This document shows, piece after piece, positions 2,193-35,947 of a stretch of 58,974 nt of DNA. The DNA is taken from the NCBI GenBank assembly GCA_001443495.1, contig LDXR01000008.1, positions 1 to 58,974 on the forward strand, given 5' to 3'. Source of the stretch: a candidate division NC10 bacterium CSP1-5. Its GTDB lineage: Bacteria > Methylomirabilota > Methylomirabilia > Methylomirabilales > CSP1-5. Made by a program: the position numbers and the translations under genes. The notes under the pieces were generated by a model. It searched no databases and had not been told where the DNA came from. It worked only from the letters and a program-made list of their open reading frames with translations. The stretch's first letter is position 1. The number at the start of each line of letters is the position of its first letter.

Positions 2193-2249
2193 GCCTAACG
2201 TCCAGCATCAGCTGCGGCGTGAAGCGCCGTCAGCCGCATGCTGTTGTAG
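2193..2249 (-). other. Integron attC site (57 bases)
   Basis: On the minus strand the element runs from CTACAAC (degenerate R'', 2249-2243) to GTTAGGC (perfect R' core, 2199-2193). Between them AGCATGCGGCTGACGGCG pairs with CGCCGCAGCTGATGCT around the loop CTTCA. Unpaired single bases in one arm (the GCTGAC against GCAGC pattern) are the classic attC design. Length is at the known minimum for attC sites. The gene to the left starts immediately after the core; the gene to the right ends just before R''. Confidence 0.7.
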
Positions 2250-2267
2250 TGAAAATGGGGTCGGTGC

Positions 2268-3380
2268 CTACTGAACGCAACCGCGGCGAGCGCTCTTGGC
2301 ATAGCTCAACAGCTCCGGGCGAAGCTTTGGATGCGCAGCGAGAAATGCATCGACGGCTGTTACGACACGCTGTGGATAATGGTGCTGCCAATGGCCCAAC
2401 CCATGCAGCGCGCTCTCCTGGCATGGGATGGACTCCAAACTGAGTACCCGCTCCATTACCCGAAGGCATTCTTCATCGATCTCCTGCCGTGCCGGCGCAT
2501 TTGGCTGAGCGAAGATGGGCATGATGTCCCACCACATGTAACAGGAGACGTTGAGCGGATTCCCGCCCGGCTCGTCGAGGTGCGAGAGGTGCGGAGAGCA
2601 CTTAACGGCATAGAGCTTCTTGAACAGGTTCACAAAAGAGCGAATACACCGCAGCCTCGCCTCAAGCGGAACCCGCTCATCTAAAAGAGCGAACATGTAG
2701 TCGCTCGCGCCGTTGCTGACGAGATACCAAAAGCCCTGATTCAGCTGCTCATCCGAATACGAGCCGACATGGGACAGGGGATCTTCGAATAGCTGCGTGA
2801 GATAAGCCACTATGACGGCCGGTGGGCCCTGCCAATACTCAGCATCAGTGTCGAAGTACCACTGCGGCCCACCAACCTCATGGTCGAACACGTGAACGAC
2901 CCATTCATCAAAGGAGAGATTGGTCAGGGCGCTCCCCATGTCTTGGGCTGCGACGTCTCGCCGTGTCGTAACGCGCCTAGCTACCAACTGTGCACAAACG
3001 CCCAGCGCGATGCCCCCGAGAACGACGGGAGGCCACACCCATACGGCCGGTACGATCAGTAAGCCCCAGAACGCCGTTCCGTCTCGGGAGATCAATCCGT
3101 ACTGCCCAAAAAGGTAGACCGCCGAAAAAGCGACATATAGGGTAGCGCCCGATGCCAGACCGACTACTGCACCTCGTCCTGCGCCTCTGATGTACGGAGG
3201 CATTCGAGCAACTAACAGAACCGCCGCGATTGCCACAACCGGCGGAAGGAGCGGCAATACGTAAGTCAACTCCAGACCTTGCCGTCGAATGTACCCGAGA
3301 GCGATGCCGGCAGTTGGCACAAGGACGATGCCACTGGCGACGATGGCCAGAGTGCCTGCAGTTCGTGAAGCCAGGCTCAT
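2268..3380 (-). CDS. Hypothetical membrane protein with soluble C-terminal domain (370 aa)
   Basis: Residues 1-135 form about four hydrophobic segments. The rest is soluble, with HVFDHEVGGPQWYFD, YSDEQLNQGFWYLVSNGASDYM, SPHLSHLDEP and QESALHGLGHW. I recall this soluble module from unnamed bacterial proteins but cannot assign a function; the many His and Asp residues do not form a motif I know. Its ATG lies 7 bases after GTTAGGC (3394-3388) and its stop lies just before the attC at 2249, so the gene fills one complete cassette-like interval. Confidence 0.7.
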   Translation of the reverse strand: MSLASRTAGTLAIVASGIVLVPTAGIALGYIRRQGLELTYVLPLLPPVVAIAAVLLVARMPPYIRGAGRGAVVGLASGATLYVAFSAVYLFGQYGLISRDGTAFWGLLIVPAVWVWPPVVLGGIALGVCAQLVARRVTTRRDVAAQDMGSALTNLSFDEWVVHVFDHEVGGPQWYFDTDAEYWQGPPAVIVAYLTQLFEDPLSHVGSYSDEQLNQGFWYLVSNGASDYMFALLDERVPLEARLRCIRSFVNLFKKLYAVKCSPHLSHLDEPGGNPLNVSCYMWWDIMPIFAQPNAPARQEIDEECLRVMERVLSLESIPCQESALHGLGHWQHHYPQRVVTAVDAFLAAHPKLRPELLSYAKSARRGCVQ

Positions 3381-3387
3381 CGGGTAT

Positions 3388-3473
3388 GCCTAACTAGAAT
3401 TAGACAGAGCTGACTAATGCCCCAAACACCGTCCTCATTTTTTTCAATGCTCAAGCGAGTACAAGCGTTAATG
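3388..3473 (-). other. Possible attC site (weak distal core)
   Basis: On the minus strand GTTAGGC at 3394-3388 is a perfect R' core directly before the 370-residue gene. The adjacent 43 bases resemble the site at 951. The opposite core (CATTAAC near 3473) fits poorly and arm pairing is weak, so the site may be decayed or only half preserved. Confidence 0.35.
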
Positions 3474-3776
3474 CATTCTCAATTGCGAAAGGATGAAAAC
3501 ATCTATTGCGAGTGCCTCCAGAAAGAGAAGTATGGCGAAGCCAGGCATCAAAAAAGATCGCGGCTCGATTCCCCGCTTGACGTGAATACCGTATCTCACT
3601 ATTTCGACGACGAGCAGAATTGCCGTTGCCACGGGGGTCACGAGGAACAGGAGTATGAGAACCCCCAATGCTGAATCGGTGCGATTCCATCCACCAAGCA
3701 GATCTAGTCTGGCCCCCACATCCAGGAAGAAGAGTATTTGGGGTAAGAGAGCGACGATGATTCGAAAGACACGCAT
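3468..3776 (-). CDS. Hypothetical small membrane protein (102 aa)
   Basis: Three hydrophobic segments are visible: IIVALLPQILFFLDVG, LGVLILLFLVTPVATAILLVV and LMPGFAILLFLEALAIDVFIL. No family recognised. The start is preceded on the minus strand by GTTGAGC (3790-3784), which also fits the integron core pattern GTTRRRY. Gene content and orientation match the other cassette-like genes at this end. Confidence 0.55.
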   Translation of the reverse strand: MRVFRIIVALLPQILFFLDVGARLDLLGGWNRTDSALGVLILLFLVTPVATAILLVVEIVRYGIHVKRGIEPRSFLMPGFAILLFLEALAIDVFILSQLRMH

Positions 3777-3874: not shown

Positions 3875-4450
3875 TTACCGTTTCTTGAACGTGAGTACCG
3901 CCGTTTCTGCCAACTCAAGTGCCCCTCGGTGAGAGGGCTCTACGTCCTGGCTGGAAAGCTGAATGACCTTATCGCCGTCCATCGCTACGTAGTTGAAACC
4001 GTGCATCGGCCGTCCCGTTTCGATATCTGTCCCGTGCCAGTAGGCCCGAACGAACTGTACACCATGAATCGTTCCTTCCTCCGCATTGCTTTGTCTCCAG
4101 TGCTTTCGCCGCCTCTCGATGCCCGCTAGAAATTTCGCAAGCACTTGAGTAAGGGTATATGGGTTCGTTTCTCCCGGCGCTGGGGCCCCCATTGTGAGCA
4201 TCACGTACGGTCGTGTTCCGTCGCTCCGTGGCGATCCAACCCACGCGTGAGCCATAGACCCACCGGGGCCCGATTGAGTTCGCAGCACGTAACCCTCGGG
4301 TACCCGCAACTGGTATGCCCCTACCTCCGCCTTGGTTGAGAGCTTGTGCAGATGCGGCGCGGTCGGCAGCCAGGGGCGCCCCTCTTCGCTATTCGAAGGA
4401 GCGGCGCTGAGAATCAGCAGAACGGCACATATCAGAATTTTGCGACACAC
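3875..4450 (-). CDS. Hypothetical secreted protein (191 aa)
   Basis: The N-terminus VCRKILICAVLLILSAAP is a signal peptide. The mature part has LRVPEGYVLRTQSGPGGSMAHAW, DGTRPYVMLTMG, GTIHGVQFVRAYWHGT and MHGFNYVAMDGDKVIQLSS, resembling unnamed planctomycete-type exported domains; function unknown. The GTG at 4450 is chosen because AAGGGGG lies 8 bases upstream and the signal peptide starts there. A longer frame to 4567 would read through a duplicated fragment of the DUF2207 gene. Confidence 0.6.
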   Translation of the reverse strand: MCRKILICAVLLILSAAPSNSEEGRPWLPTAPHLHKLSTKAEVGAYQLRVPEGYVLRTQSGPGGSMAHAWVGSPRSDGTRPYVMLTMGAPAPGETNPYTLTQVLAKFLAGIERRRKHWRQSNAEEGTIHGVQFVRAYWHGTDIETGRPMHGFNYVAMDGDKVIQLSSQDVEPSHRGALELAETAVLTFKKR

Positions 4451-4571: not shown

Positions 4572-4946
4572 TCAAGACTGCTTTTGGGTCAGGCGATAGT
4601 TCTCGTCGCAGACGACCTCTTCGACTCGGCCCGTCTTTCCGTCAATCACGAGTTGAGGCGGTGTTGCTGCGTCTTCTCGTGAAGGGAATATCAATTTTTC
4701 CTTCTCTCTGCGATTTTTCTTATAAGAGATTCTTCCCACAGGTTCCGGCATGATCTTGAGAACCTCGACTCTTGTCATGCCGAGTCGGATCTGTCTGCAG
4801 TTGGCGACAGGTTCGGCTTTCCTATATGTGGTCGTTCCCCAATTCACGGTGATGACCAGAGCCATGATGGCTGCCCCTACGAGGGGGACTACCCAGATAA
4901 GGGTCGAACGTTTTAGCTTTGACCTCAGGCCTCCGTACCAATTCAT
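4572..4946 (-). CDS. Hypothetical single-pass protein, BamE/SmpA-like pattern (124 aa)
   Basis: One membrane segment near the N-terminus (LIWVVPLVGAAIMALVITV) precedes a small exported domain with CRQIRLGMTRVEVLKIMPEPVG. The LGMTxxEVxxIMGxP pattern is seen in SmpA/OmlA-type folds, so a periplasmic anchored module is likely. AGGAG lies 6 bases before the ATG. The gene sits between two direct repeats derived from the DUF2207 3' end and may have been inserted there. Confidence 0.55.
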   Translation of the reverse strand: MNWYGGLRSKLKRSTLIWVVPLVGAAIMALVITVNWGTTTYRKAEPVANCRQIRLGMTRVEVLKIMPEPVGRISYKKNRREKEKLIFPSREDAATPPQLVIDGKTGRVEEVVCDENYRLTQKQS

Positions 4947-5034
4947 GAGCGACTCCTGTTACGGCGCGTCGGATCGAGTGACTAATGCAAACGCATTCCA
5001 TCTTGTGACAATCAATCAATAGAACAATAGACCG

Positions 5035-30367: not shown

Positions 30368-31444
30368 ATGGTTCTCAAGGCTGAGGATCTCAAGGTCCTC
30401 CCGTTAGCCCAGATTCTGGACCGGCAGACCCGGGAGGGGGAGCTGTATGAGCGCCTCCCGGAGAAGGCGTTGCGATGTTACGCGTGCGGTCATCGGTGCC
30501 TCATCCGGGATGGCCGTCGGGGCATCTGCAAGGTCCGGTTCAATAGGGACGGGACGCTGTACGTCCCCTGGGGCTATGTCGCTGCGCTCCAGTGCGATCC
30601 GACCGAGAAGAAGCCCTTCTACCATATGCTCCCCGGGTCGCATACCCTCACCTTTGGGATGCTCGGCTGCGACTATCACTGCCCGTATTGCCAGAACTGG
30701 CTGACCTCGCAGGCCCTGCGGGATCCGGCGGCCGGAGCGAGGCCCGAATCGGTGAGCCCGAAGGGGCTCGTCGACCTCGCGCTGCGCTCTGGGGCGCGGC
30801 TCGTGGGGAGTTCGTATAATGAGCCGCTCATCACCGCCGAATGGGCGGTCGCGATCTTCCAAGAGGCCAAGACGGCGGGACTCAAGACCTGCTTCATCAG
30901 CAATGGCAACGGGACCGAGCAGGTCCTCACCTATCTCAGGCCCTGGTGTGACGGGTACAAGATCGACCTCAAGTCAATGTCGCAGAAGAATTATCGCTAT
31001 CTCGGTGGGGTGCTGGAGCACGTCCTTGAGACTGTCCAAATGGTGCACGCGGTGGGGTTCTGGCTCGAGGTGGTGACCCTCATCGTCCCCGGGTGGAACG
31101 ACTCGGATGAGGAGCTCACACAGGCCGCGGAGTTTTTGGTCTCGATCTCTCCCGACATCCCCTGGCACGTCACCGCCTTCCACAAGGACTACAAGATGAC
31201 CGATCCGGACCACACCCGTCCCGAGACCTTGCTTCGGGCCGCTCGGATCGGCCAGTCAGCCGGGCTCCGGTACGTCTATGCCGGCAACCTCCCCGGCCGG
31301 GTGGGGAAGTACGAGAACACCTACTGTCCGACGTGCAAGGACCCCCTCATTGCCCGCTTCGGATTCCTCGTCACTGCGAACCGGCTCACCCCCGACGGGA
31401 GCTGCCCCTCCTGCCACACTCCGATTCCCGGCATTTGGAGTTAG
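30368..31444 (+). CDS. amrS: AmmeMemoRadiSam system radical SAM enzyme
   Basis: 358 residues. An N-terminal cysteine region (RCYACGHRCLIRDGRRGICKVR) and the radical SAM cluster motif in FGMLGCDYHCPYCQNW, then SYNEPLITAEW, YKIDLKSM, and a C-terminal Cys pair region (YCPTCKDPLIARFG, CPSCHTPI). This matches AmrS of the AmmeMemoRadiSam system, whose AMMECR1 and Memo partners are not in the window. Function is poorly known, probably a modification reaction. Confidence 0.88.
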   Translation: MVLKAEDLKVLPLAQILDRQTREGELYERLPEKALRCYACGHRCLIRDGRRGICKVRFNRDGTLYVPWGYVAALQCDPTEKKPFYHMLPGSHTLTFGMLGCDYHCPYCQNWLTSQALRDPAAGARPESVSPKGLVDLALRSGARLVGSSYNEPLITAEWAVAIFQEAKTAGLKTCFISNGNGTEQVLTYLRPWCDGYKIDLKSMSQKNYRYLGGVLEHVLETVQMVHAVGFWLEVVTLIVPGWNDSDEELTQAAEFLVSISPDIPWHVTAFHKDYKMTDPDHTRPETLLRAARIGQSAGLRYVYAGNLPGRVGKYENTYCPTCKDPLIARFGFLVTANRLTPDGSCPSCHTPIPGIWS

Positions 31445-31667
31445 CGGAAACGCGTCAAGAAAAGGGGACATTCTAGATTCTTACTTCAAGCCAGGCCGGT
31501 CTGGTGTACGGTGGGCTCATGTTGCGCTGTGCAGTGTTTGTCTTGTGGGAGGTCCGGGAGGATTTGCCTATCCGATGAAAAATACGGTAACATTGCCGTC
31601 GAATTCCCAGGCAGCCGGCGTGATGTCCTGACCCGGATGGGGAGTTATACGGAACAGCCTACTCATA
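31445..31667. other. Non-coding stretch before the cassette
   Basis: No gene seen. AAAAGGGGACATTCTA at 31461-31476 resembles ends of REP-type elements. The segment directly left of the GTTAGGC core (31630-31667) shows no attC arms, so the cassette's left neighbour is not another attC. Confidence 0.4.
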
Positions 31668-33083
31668 GTTAGGCGGCGCGACGCGACGTTTGCCTGACCG
31701 AAGGGCGCGGCAACAGGAGCTGGTGCCCAACCGGATTGACCGATCGGGCTGGTGAGAGGCAACAGGCATGAGCGATCACGACACCGCGACTCGGACAGGG
31801 CGGATCGTCGTCCACCTCGTGCACGGCACCTGGGCGGAGAACGCACCGTGGACGCAGCCGGGCTCGTTCTTCCGGGAGCGTCTCCAACGCAGACTGTGGG
31901 AGCTTGAGATCGGTACGGAGATCGAGTTCACCGCGCCTCAGTGGGGCGGTCAGAACCGACAGTCAGTCCGTCTGGCCGGAGTGGAGAAAGTGCGCGACGA
32001 GGTGCGCAAGAAAGCCTCCGAGGGAGGAGTTCGCATTTGCCAACTGCTCGTCGGACACAGCCACGGCGGCAGCGTCTGTTTCCTGGCCTGCAAGGACGGG
32101 GAAAGGAGCATCGCCAGCGAGGTGGACGGCGTCGTGTGCCTCTCCACGCCATTCCTGGTCTTTCGTCGCGCGCCCTACCTGCGGTGGATGTCCCATGCCT
32201 GCTGCGTGGCCTGGTTGATGGTCGCGATGATCGCCGCGAGGGTCCTCCTCGTCGACAACGCTCTGAAGGCGGCACTCCTCTCCCTTCCGGTTCTCATCGC
32301 GTACGCCGCGTTCCGGGCATGGGCTTCGCGGTACGGATACAGCGAGCCGGAGGTCATCACCGTGCCGAAATCTTTGCCGGTCCCGACTCTTCTGATCCGG
32401 TGTCCGGGGGACGAGGCGTCCGGAGTTCTCGGGGCATCGCTGGTCGTTGAGCGCGTCATGGTGTTGTTGACCGCGAAGGTCGCCTCGGTTTGGGAATGGA
32501 TGAACCGCCACCGACTTGTATACCTCCTCTTCGCTGTCCTGCTGGGCCTCACGGTCTCCGCGGCCATGTTCGCGAGCATGGCGCTGAGCGGATCGCTGGA
32601 GGCGCTGAAATGGCCGGCGATCGTCCTGGCGGCTCTATTTGCCCTGGTGCTGGTCGTCCCCCTGCTGCTGGGTTTCCCATCCCGGAGCCTGCTGTACTGG
32701 TTCTCGTATGGATCCGACGTGGCCACGAGAGGAGTCTTCCTCGACGTCAGCGCGGAGTCGACACCCCCTGGCGCCTGGCTGGTCCACACGATCTTCCCGC
32801 GACGGTTCGAGTCCGGCCTGCCCGGCTTGGCGCACAGCGAGCCGTACGACAACGAGGAGGCGATCGACATCGTTGCGCGGTGGGTGGGCAAGTTGGTCGA
32901 ACGGACTGGCGCGCGGGTCGGACGCGAGCAGCACGATCACTAGGTTGGCGCCGCTTAACCAGCGCTCGAAGCTGACGGGCCCGGCCAAATAGGGATGAAT
33001 GCCATTTGTGCACCAGCCAGATCGTAGAGCGAGTCAGTCACGGTTGCGCCAGCGGCGCCAGGCCCGCAGCTTAAGCGCGATCC
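31668..33083 (+). mobile_element. Integron-type gene cassette
   Basis: Begins at the core GTTAGGC (31668-31674), contains one gene (31768-32943) and ends at the R' cleavage point of a well-formed attC (core GTTAGGC at 33084-33090). Both boundary cores are identical in sequence, as expected after integrase-mediated insertion. No attI or integrase gene is nearby, so insertion into a secondary site, or loss of the platform, is inferred. Confidence 0.65.
31768..32943 (+). CDS. Cassette-borne alpha/beta hydrolase with membrane segments (391 aa)
   Basis: IVVHLVHGTWAENAPW holds the oxyanion HG motif, and LLVGHSHGGSVCFLA is a textbook nucleophile elbow (GxSxG, Ser). After the first half of the fold come four or five hydrophobic segments (CVAWLMVAMIAARVLLV, LLSLPVLIAYAAFRAW, VYLLFAVLLGLTVSAAMFASMAL, WPAIVLAALFALVLVVPLLLG), then a tail with VSAESTPPGAWLVHTIFP and a possible catalytic His in that region. 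A membrane-bound esterase or lipase is likely. Start ATG at 31768 follows GAGAGGCAACAGGC. Its role in the host is unknown; defence is only a speculation from cassette context. Confidence 0.75.
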   Translation: MSDHDTATRTGRIVVHLVHGTWAENAPWTQPGSFFRERLQRRLWELEIGTEIEFTAPQWGGQNRQSVRLAGVEKVRDEVRKKASEGGVRICQLLVGHSHGGSVCFLACKDGERSIASEVDGVVCLSTPFLVFRRAPYLRWMSHACCVAWLMVAMIAARVLLVDNALKAALLSLPVLIAYAAFRAWASRYGYSEPEVITVPKSLPVPTLLIRCPGDEASGVLGASLVVERVMVLLTAKVASVWEWMNRHRLVYLLFAVLLGLTVSAAMFASMALSGSLEALKWPAIVLAALFALVLVVPLLLGFPSRSLLYWFSYGSDVATRGVFLDVSAESTPPGAWLVHTIFPRRFESGLPGLAHSEPYDNEEAIDIVARWVGKLVERTGARVGREQHDH

Positions 33084-33090
33084 GTTAGGC
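32953..33090 (+). other. Integron attC site (138 bases)
   Basis: R'' core GCTTAAC (32953-32959) fits RYYYAAC, and R' core GTTAGGC (33084-33090) fits GTTRRRY. The inner arms GCGCTCGAAGCTGACGGGCC and GGCCCGCAGCTTAAGCGC pair almost throughout, with the unpaired single bases that orient integrase binding. Length is within the known attC range. It begins 10 bases after the hydrolase stop codon. Confidence 0.82.
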
Positions 33091-33179
33091 CATCGAGGCG
33101 AGCGGCTGCGACGGCAAGTCGAGCCCGGATGCGGGGCCGGTTGTCGCGGCCAAAACGAACGCGAGTGGTGGAGGTGCCC

Positions 33180-33695
33180 ATGATCACGCGTCATTTGAAG
33201 TGGTTGGTCGGCGGGCTGTTCACGGCCGTACTTGCTGGGTTGCTCCTAGTGCAGCCTGCCGCCCGCGCCCAGGGCAAGGACAAGCTCGACCTAGACACGA
33301 TTCCAAAGAAGGTGATGGCTACCCTGAAGGCCAAGTTCCCCAAGGCCGAGATCCACCAGTGGATCAAGGCGACAGACGGCGACATCGTCGTCTACGACAT
33401 CGAGTTCAAGCAGGAGGGCCGGAAGTTCGAGGCGGACATCAAGGAGGACGGCACGATCCACAACTGGGAGAAAGACGTTGCGGTCAAGGATCTGCCCGAT
33501 GCCGTCAAGAAGGCCGTGGAAAAGAAGTACCCCAAGTCCACTCTCAGGGAGATCATGGAGATCACTGCTGTGAAGAATGGGAAGGATGAACTGGAAGGAT
33601 ACGAAATCGTTCTAGAAACCGCTGACAAGAAGGAATTCGAAGTCACGGTAGCGCCAGATGGCAAGATCCTGGAAGACTCCGGGGGCAAGAATTAA
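33180..33695 (+). CDS. Exported PepSY-like protein (171 aa)
   Basis: Signal peptide (HLKWLVGGLFTAVLAGLLLVQPAARAQG), then two similar units: IPKKVMATLKAKFPKAEIHQWIKA...YDIEFKQEGRKFEADIKEDG and LPDAVKKAVEKKYPKSTLREIME...YEIVLETADKKEFEVTVAPDG. This is the two-lobe pattern of PepSY-like (DUF2874-type) periplasmic proteins. Possibly an inhibitor or binding protein. ATG at 33180 after GGAGGTGCCC. It lies 89 bases after the attC, and may or may not belong to a further cassette. Confidence 0.78.
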   Translation: MITRHLKWLVGGLFTAVLAGLLLVQPAARAQGKDKLDLDTIPKKVMATLKAKFPKAEIHQWIKATDGDIVVYDIEFKQEGRKFEADIKEDGTIHNWEKDVAVKDLPDAVKKAVEKKYPKSTLREIMEITAVKNGKDELEGYEIVLETADKKEFEVTVAPDGKILEDSGGKN

Positions 33696-33785
33696 TGTCG
33701 GCCTAGCCCCTCGGAGTGTTTTGCCGGTTGCACTTCTGTCCCCTCTGGACTTTCTGTACTGTTGTACCTTCCGCACTGACTTGAT

Positions 33786-35786
33786 TTAGGTTTCGATAAT
33801 GCCGAGCATGCGGCGTTCGAGATCGCGGATCTGGTCGCGAAGCTCGGCGGCCCGCTCAAACTCCAGCCGCTTGGCCGCTTGCCTCATCTGCTTTTCCAAC
33901 GTTGCGACGAGGGCAGGGATCTCTTCCCGAGGGACGTACTTCATCCGCTCCTCCTCGGGCAGGGCGGGCACCGTGTAGTAGTCCCGCTCGTAGATCGAGG
34001 CGAGGACATCGGTGATCTGCTTCTTGATGGTCTCTGGGGTGATGCCGTGTTTTTCATTGTACGCCACCTGGAGGGCCCGCCGCCGGCTCGTCTCCTCTAG
34101 CGCCCCCTTCATGGAGCGGGTGGTGACATCGGCGTAGAGGATCGCCTTGCCTTCCACATGGCGCGCGGCCCGACCCATGGTCTGGATGAGGGATCCCGAC
34201 GACCGCAGGAACCCTTCCTTGTCGGCATCGAGGATGGCGACGAGAGAGACCTCGGGAATGTCGAGCCCCTCCCGGAGGAGGTTGATCCCGACGAGGGTAT
34301 CGAACTTGCCCAGGCGGAGGTTGCGGATGATCTCATTGCGTTCGAGGGTGTCGATATCCGAGTGGAGGTAGCGGACCCGGATGCCGTGCTCGGCGAGATA
34401 GTCGGTGAGCTCCTCGGCCATCCGCTTCGTGAGGGTGGTGACGAGGACCCGCTGGTGGTTCGTGGCGCGAATCCGAATCTCATGCATGAGGTCATCGATC
34501 TGGCCCCGGGTGGGCCGGACCTCGATCGCGGGGTCGATGAGCCCCGTGGGCCGGATGATCTGTTCCGCGACGAGGCCGCGGGTTTTCTGGATTTCATAGG
34601 GGCCGGGCGTGGCCGAGACGTAGATCGCCTGGTGCACGCACCGCTCGAACTCGGCGAACGTGAGCGGGCGGTTATCGAGGGCGGAGGGGAGGCGGAACCC
34701 GTACTCGACCAGGGTTTCCTTGCGCGACCGATCTCCCCGATACATGCCGTGCAGTTGGGGGATCGTCTGGTGTGACTCGTCGATAATGACCAGGGCATCC
34801 TTCGGGAGGTAGTCCATGAGGGTCGGTGGGGGCTCTCCGGCCGTCCGCCCCGTGAGATGGCGGGAGTAGTTTTCGATGCCCTTGCAGGTTCCGATCTCGC
34901 GCATCATCTCGAGGTCAAAGAGAGTCCGCTGTCGCAGGCGCTGGGCCTCCAGGAGCTTTCCCGCCTTCTCGAGCCAGGGGGCCCGCTCTTCGAGTTCCTC
35001 CTCGATGGCTTCGAGGGCCCGCTGTCGCCGCTCTTCGGGCGTCACATAATGATTGGCGGGGTAGATCGGGGCCCGGTGGAGTATCTGGAGCTTTGCCCCG
35101 GTCAACGGGTCGATCTCCCATAGACCCGCCACCTCATCCCCCCACAGTTCCACGCGGACAGCGGTATCTGCGTAGGCGGGGAAGACCTCCACCACATCTC
35201 CCCGGACGCGGAAGGTCCCCCGGTGAAAATCGTAGTCGTTCCGCTGGTACTGGATCTCGACGAGCTTCCGGAGCATCTCCTCGCGTTGGCACCATCCCCC
35301 CTGTTCCAGGAACACCATCATGCCGTAATAGGCCTCGGGAGAGCCCAGCCCGTAGATACATGAGACCGACGCGATGATGATCACGTCCCGCCGCTCGAGC
35401 AGGGAGCGGGTGGCCGAATGGCGCAGCTTGTCGATGTGCTTGTTGATCATGGCGTCCTTTTCGATATAGGTGTCGGAGTGGGGGATGTAGGCCTCCGGCT
35501 GGTAATAGTCGTAGTAGCTGACAAAATACTCGACGGCATGATCGGGGAAGAAGGTCTTGAACTCGTTGTAGAGCTGGGCGGCCAGCGTCTTGTTATGGGC
35601 GATGATCAGGGTCGGCCGTTCGCTCGCGGCGATGACGTTGGCCATGGTAAAGGTCTTGCCCGACCCGGTCACGCCCAGGAGGACCTGGTGCCGCTGCCCC
35701 TTGGCAATCCCCTCCGTGAGCTGCTCGATGGCTCGCGGCTGGTCCCCTTTCGGTTCGAAGTCAAAGTGGAGCTTGAAGAGCGACAT
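33786..35786 (-). CDS. uvrB: Excinuclease ABC subunit B
   Basis: 666 residues. Walker [16 protein letters not shown], the beta-hairpin region [21 protein letters not shown], helicase motifs DESHQT and [31 protein letters not shown] and QTMGRAARH, and the C-terminal UVR motif for UvrC binding. It verifies DNA damage in nucleotide excision repair. ATG at 35786 after AGGGGGGAAC; the frame to 35876 extends too far. Confidence 0.97.
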
Positions 35787-35947
35787 GTTCCCCCCTGGCT
35801 TGCGGTCGTGCGTCTCCCTCAAGAGATTATCGCTGAAAGGGGGAAGTGACACAAGAAGGCGTGTCCCCGGCGTCACGAAGGATTCGTCGCCTGGGACAAC
35901 GCTAAAGGCCTGGCACCCCTGGTGTGCCTCGAGGCGCGGGGCGGATG

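Follow-up and report, generated by a model that had tools for sequence, protein, structure and literature searches.

A 58,974-nucleotide stretch of contig LDXR01000008.1 (positions 1-58,974) from the candidate division NC10 bacterium CSP1-5, hereafter the window, contains a genuine integron gene cassette (31668-33083) that carries one membrane alpha/beta-hydrolase gene and ends in a real attC site. The cassette lies between an amrS-like gene and uvrB in a genome without an integron integrase gene (intI). The locus is very probably the relic of a sedentary chromosomal integron that occupied a fixed position between amrS and uvrB and has lost its intI.

The core sequence GTTAGGC is present twice, at 31668-31674 and 33084-33090, and the two copies flank a single open reading frame (ORF; 31768-32943) of 391 residues. 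The ORF lies on the plus strand, points toward its own attC and stops 9 nt short of it. The stretch 31668-33090 therefore has a GTTRRRY core at both ends and a gene that faces the attC, and the plus-strand cassette, which spans core to core, would have an excised form of 1416 bp. A complete single-gene cassette with this core had been proposed in an initial annotation of the window, and the matching cores, the single ORF and the attC confirm it. Among the remaining 94 genomes examined in this phylum, none has a close homologue of the cassette, and no relative was found to carry the same gene in synteny without an attC, an arrangement that the initial annotation had named as contrary to a cassette.

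The attC of the hydrolase cassette (32953-33090, plus strand, 138 nt) is an imperfect palindrome in which four boxes follow in order: R'' (GCTTAAC, 32953-32959), L'' (GCGCTCGAAGCTG, 32962-32974), L' (CAGCTTAAGCGC, 33067-33078) and R' (GTTAGGC, 33084-33090). R'' pairs with R' and L'' with L', and the L stem is bulged by extrahelical bases. The bottom strand folds with -31.5 kcal/mol (z=-2.9), a value that none of 200 shuffles equals. In a rule-based scan of the window, the site is the best R''/R' pair, with an L-box score of 14, whereas none of the 159 candidate pairs from a 5.0-Mb second-order Markov simulation scores above 12. Because a strict RYYYAAC...GTTRRRY scan overlooked most diverged attC sites of relatives, covariance models were built from attC sites of the order, 12 for the first model and 22 for the second, with the window sites excluded. 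The first model assigned 21.8 bits to the hydrolase cassette attC, which ranked under a real attC at 2193-2252 of the window and little above noise. The broader second model set both sites apart from noise. It gave the hydrolase cassette attC a score of 27.5 bits, with an E-value of 6.4e-5 for 59 kb, while the strongest match of the window other than an attC reached 11.4 bits. The paired, bulged arms of a 138-base attC, which had been recognized in the initial annotation, are thus accepted by covariance scoring. Hairpins form easily in GC-rich DNA, and the site could in principle be a terminator-like repeat that follows a hydrolase gene outside any cassette. The covariance E-value (6e-5), the absence of an equally good pair among the 159 simulated ones, the matching cores at both ends and the cassette-specific presence and absence in congeners make such a chance palindrome extremely improbable.

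On the left side, the cassette abuts a sequence without an attC, which the initial annotation had read as a possible secondary GTT site between amrS and the PepSY gene. This view is not supported, and the boundary is not featureless, as the 150 bp to the left of the core recur twice in congener G003 and once in congener G006. The block at 31525-31674 is 93% and 89% identical to the two G003 blocks and 91% identical to the G006 block, and the congener blocks are located upstream of uvrB on uvrB-bearing contigs. In G003, the first block begins where a truncated intI 3' end stops (TIGR02249 positions 222-315, E 2e-46). The similarity between the window and the congener blocks stops exactly at GTTA(G/T)GC and is followed by different cassettes, so that comparison with G003 places a cassette breakpoint at the core. 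The cassettes behind the congener blocks bear attC sites (3448-3537 and 4898-4961 in locus L027, and likewise in L028). One of them recurs on contig C13 of the CSP1-5 genome (325 bp at 91%), where the sequence to its left is another one; recombination at the core would produce this pattern. The recurrence in congeners, the adjoining intI 3' end and the stop of homology at the core therefore identify the left boundary as an attI-type site (31525-31674, plus strand), whose putative function is assigned from homology and breakpoints and whose predicted recombination point is the G of the core at 31668-31674. A possible cassette promoter (Pc) is weakly discernible inside the attI (TTGCCT - 18 nt - TAACAT, 31564-31593, plus strand). 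Its -35 and -10 elements are plausible by eye, a generic promoter scan gave no call there, and the G003 attI copies have TACAAT or TAAAAT at the -10 position. In locus L027 (G003 contig C162, 3060-4255), the unit of intI 3' end and attI is duplicated ∼1 kb apart in the array.

The congener blocks also bear on an off-target insertion, in which an integrase encoded elsewhere or now lost would have put the cassette into a secondary GTT site after amrS. Off-target insertion is an accepted route to integrase-less cassettes (PMC8618304), and it would agree with the lack of an attC at the left boundary and with other dispersed attC sites in this integrase-less genome. However, the left 150 bp are common to congeners at the same locus, where they adjoin other cassettes and remnants of intI. 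Such a history is not expected of a random secondary site, and off-target insertion is very improbable.

The hydrolase cassette is followed by a PepSY-domain gene (33177-33695, plus strand, 172 residues; Pfam PepSY_like, E 3e-8). The initial annotation had placed this gene on the chromosomal flank of the insertion. Sequence comparison instead indicates that it most likely forms a second cassette (33084-33707, plus strand) with a truncated attC. The segment 33087-33705 is 86% identical to contig C226 of congener G005, from the core to the inside of R'', and the G005 copy sits just downstream of two attC sites. The R''-like box at the end of the second cassette reads GGCCTAGC in the window and GGCCTAAC in G005. 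This box is all that remains of the attC in the window, and the 3' part is lost.

The two cassettes are enclosed by conserved chromosomal genes. The 5' flank is the amrS-like radical S-adenosylmethionine gene (30368-31444, plus strand; Pfam Radical_SAM, E 2e-14), and the 3' side consists of uvrB (33786-35876) together with its 3' flank (33718-35876 in total, minus strand). Conservation of the uvrB-side flank begins at 33718 in the comparison with G003 and G006 and at ∼33741 in that with G001 and G002. In G002, amrS is immediately followed by an intI 3' remnant, with several genes between this remnant and uvrB. The congener blocks and the G002 remnant therefore point to the amrS-uvrB interval as the integron site of the genus. 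In locus L029 (G002 contig C119, 2544-4402), part of the uvrB 3' end occurs again on the array-side flank, with the second copy at 4264-4402.

The window itself contains no intI, and the orientation of the integron was judged from relatives. An intI above the curated cut-off is present in 8 of the 35 genomes of the order, and fragments occur in many others. In G017, G021 and G027, attC sites are located 3' of intI on the same strand, accompanied in G017 by cassette genes, which places the attI downstream of the intI stop codon. The reverse orientation, in which intI is transcribed toward attI and the cassettes follow downstream on the same strand, is thus found in these three genomes and in G003.

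No intI was detected in the CSP1-5 genome (2.77 Mb in 40 contigs, 99.7% complete) by a whole-genome TIGR02249 search, and none adjoins the attI. The only TIGR02249 matches are two tyrosine recombinases below the cut-off, which are read as XerC/XerD, one of them adjoining trmFO. The absence of an integrase beside the cassette, already stated in the initial annotation, therefore extends to the genome. Between the amrS stop codon and the attI block there is a gap of only 80 bp, which argues that intI was deleted. Alternatively, the cassette cluster could have been parted from intI by rearrangement, or intI could have fallen into assembly gaps; the 40-contig draft state of the genome and the rearranged blocks in G002 contig C155 and in G003 lend themselves to such a scenario. 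The sequence from amrS to uvrB is, however, uninterrupted and conserved in both flanks, and the whole-genome search yielded no intI, which makes separation or assembly loss very improbable.

A degenerate integron at the amrS-uvrB site remains the preferred explanation, and several observations weigh against it. No intI fragment is present at the CSP1-5 locus, where the loss is deduced from congeners. Most congener contigs end inside the amrS-uvrB interval, and no full intI-attI-array is available at the exact site. G002 contig C155 has a diverged (∼78%) copy of the attI-like block upstream of an intI fragment, a position indicating that these arrays rearrange; in the corresponding locus (L030, 1-1770), a small gene separates the attI-like block from the N-terminal intI fragment. 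The attC of the hydrolase cassette has a lower score than the majority of attC sites in the order, in part owing to its long variable loop, and a fast genome-wide attC search left it unlisted.

From these comparisons, we infer the following order of events. The ancestral integron of the genus would have had intI directed toward attI, with cassettes accumulating behind the 3' end of intI and oriented like this gene. The integrase would have recombined cassettes, through folded bottom-strand attC sites, into attI at G/TT of GTTRRRY. In the CSP1-5 lineage, intI would then have been deleted between amrS and attI, leaving behind the attI (31525-31674), the intact hydrolase cassette with its attC and the PepSY cassette with its truncated attC. 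The hydrolase gene would thereby have become immobile, an ordinary gene that is probably transcribed from a candidate promoter inside attI.

Additional attC sites survive without an integrase in the CSP1-5 genome: contig C13 has two, contig C2 has one, and the window has another. The window site belongs to another integrase-less cassette on the minus strand (2193-3394), which has GTTAGGC near 3394, an ORF (3380-2268) for a 370-residue protein with N-terminal membrane segments, and an attC at 2193-2252 (35.4 bits, E 5e-7), and is followed by a small ORF (2208-1879). On contig C13, the attC at 96497-96586 (53 bits; locus L086, 1-1600) is accompanied by two attI-like left boundaries (∼180-220 and ∼1260-1300), and the small cassette of this region is also located behind the attI of G003. 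Solitary attC sites of 40 bits each lie near contig ends at C2:119-208 and C13:415-496 (loci L087 and L088).

The product of the intact cassette belongs to the alpha/beta-hydrolase superfamily, with the nucleophile elbow, acid, histidine and fold all present. Abhydrolase_6 is the only Pfam family above the cut-off (E 7.6e-6), and neither an NCBIfam match nor a PADLOC model match (0 families at E<=1) was obtained. The GHSHGG elbow occupies residues 96-101, and hydropathy prediction locates four membrane segments, in agreement with the membrane hydrolase of the initial annotation. In a 15-member alignment, Ser98, Asp215 (in a DE motif) and His356 together with an HGT motif are invariant, the serine motif is HSHxG, and the catalytic triad assigned from this conservation and the membrane segments are kept in the 14 relatives. 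The protein resembles the Abhydrolase_6, Hydrolase_4 and PGAP1-like families of Pfam in its fold core, nucleophile elbow, acid and histidine but differs from them in two sets of membrane helices inserted between the segments that bear Ser98, Asp215 and His356. The AlphaFold2 model (mean predicted local distance difference test score of 78) consists of a hydrolase core and long helices. Foldseek matched BioH, esterases and monoglyceride lipases over the core only (best E 7e-4). In a profile search of the PDB, no solved relative covers the inserted membrane helices; spurious ClcA matches in the membrane segments were discarded, and lipase matches were weak. The best reading of the protein is a putative membrane-embedded serine esterase or lipase.

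Close homologues of the hydrolase were absent from genome contigs, viral contigs, plasmids and phages in a single-sequence search. A two-member alignment that included a distant G017 relative retrieved 16 loci from unrelated phyla, approximately half of them near full length. The G017 relative was rejected as a cassette because the covariance model detected no attC within 3.4 kb. A relative on plasmid 1 of Polaromonas sp. JS666 (NC_007949) is an independent cassette, with GTTAGGC ∼20 bp upstream of the start codon and, at the stop codon, an attC (44.9 bits, E 3e-9). This relative, annotated only partly and as hypothetical, is the first of two cassettes in locus L108 (3004-4748), near which no integrase is annotated. 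Further relatives reside on provirus-type contigs. One in L112 adjoins an integrase-like gene, and one in L111 comes after early genes and just before a terminase-like gene, with neighbours identified by reading the sequences rather than by family search. These occurrences suggest that the hydrolase family is accessory cargo, possibly phage-related.

Instead of a metabolic or lipid enzyme, the hydrolase could accordingly be an effector of phage defence or superinfection exclusion, an idea compatible with any reading of the locus. The relatives in L111 and L112 are at typical accessory positions, and a SIR2 family gene is found ∼2 kb from the Polaromonas cassette homologue. However, the PADLOC search returned no match, no defence-island pattern surrounds the relatives, and most of them are orphan chromosomal genes without evident defence neighbours. 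A role in defence is therefore considered unlikely, and an esterase or lipase embedded in the membrane is the favoured function.

No description of an integron in NC10/Methylomirabilota was found in the literature, with subscription papers outside the coverage, and a 2021 list of integron-bearing phyla does not include this phylum (PMC8618304). Tentatively, and with rather low expectation, the phylum may possess an undescribed, reverse-oriented, fixed-site integron lineage that has been frozen repeatedly through loss of the integrase, and the hydrolase may be an uncharacterized membrane effector, possibly phage-defensive, that travels as cassette, plasmid and prophage cargo. Genomes of the order range stepwise from a complete intI over fragments to no intI at all, so that the decay of integrons can be tested. 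Through its intact cassette, the locus also draws attention to a little-studied family of membrane hydrolases, which integron cassettes have acquired at least two times.

Integrase-less relic integrons are already a known kind. The CALIN class, defined by at least two attC sites without an integrase (IntegronFinder 2.0 default, PMC9024848), resembles the NC10 locus in its integrase-less attC, but the locus has one complete attC, under the two-site threshold and thus outside the class, and contains an attI, which the class does not require. Delta-attI-type cassettes (PMC12901181) are similar in having attI copies inside arrays, as in G003 contig C162 and CSP1-5 contig C13, whereas the G003 repeat unit also takes in a portion of the intI 3' end and does not belong to a mobile class 1 integron. 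In the ilvD-intI integrons of Xanthomonas, the integrase is often inactivated at a fixed chromosomal site (PMC12444791), and the NC10 locus shares with them an ancestral integron, a conserved site, frequent integrase loss and frozen arrays. At the NC10 locus, comparison with congeners reveals a surviving, recognizable attI, which argues that an integron with a constant chromosomal position lost its integrase. In Xanthomonas, however, intI lies downstream of ilvD, whereas the NC10 site is amrS-uvrB, relatives carry intI in reverse orientation, and one intact and one broken cassette are all that is left of the array. The chromosomal integrons of Treponema have the same unusual order of intI toward attI, and in T. 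phagedenis intI is lost while attC sites survive (PMC3607928). As in Treponema, attC sites and cassettes outlast intI in NC10, and the relatives are reverse-oriented; the NC10 locus differs in its phylum, in an attI that is recognizable through congeners and in its fixed position between amrS and uvrB.
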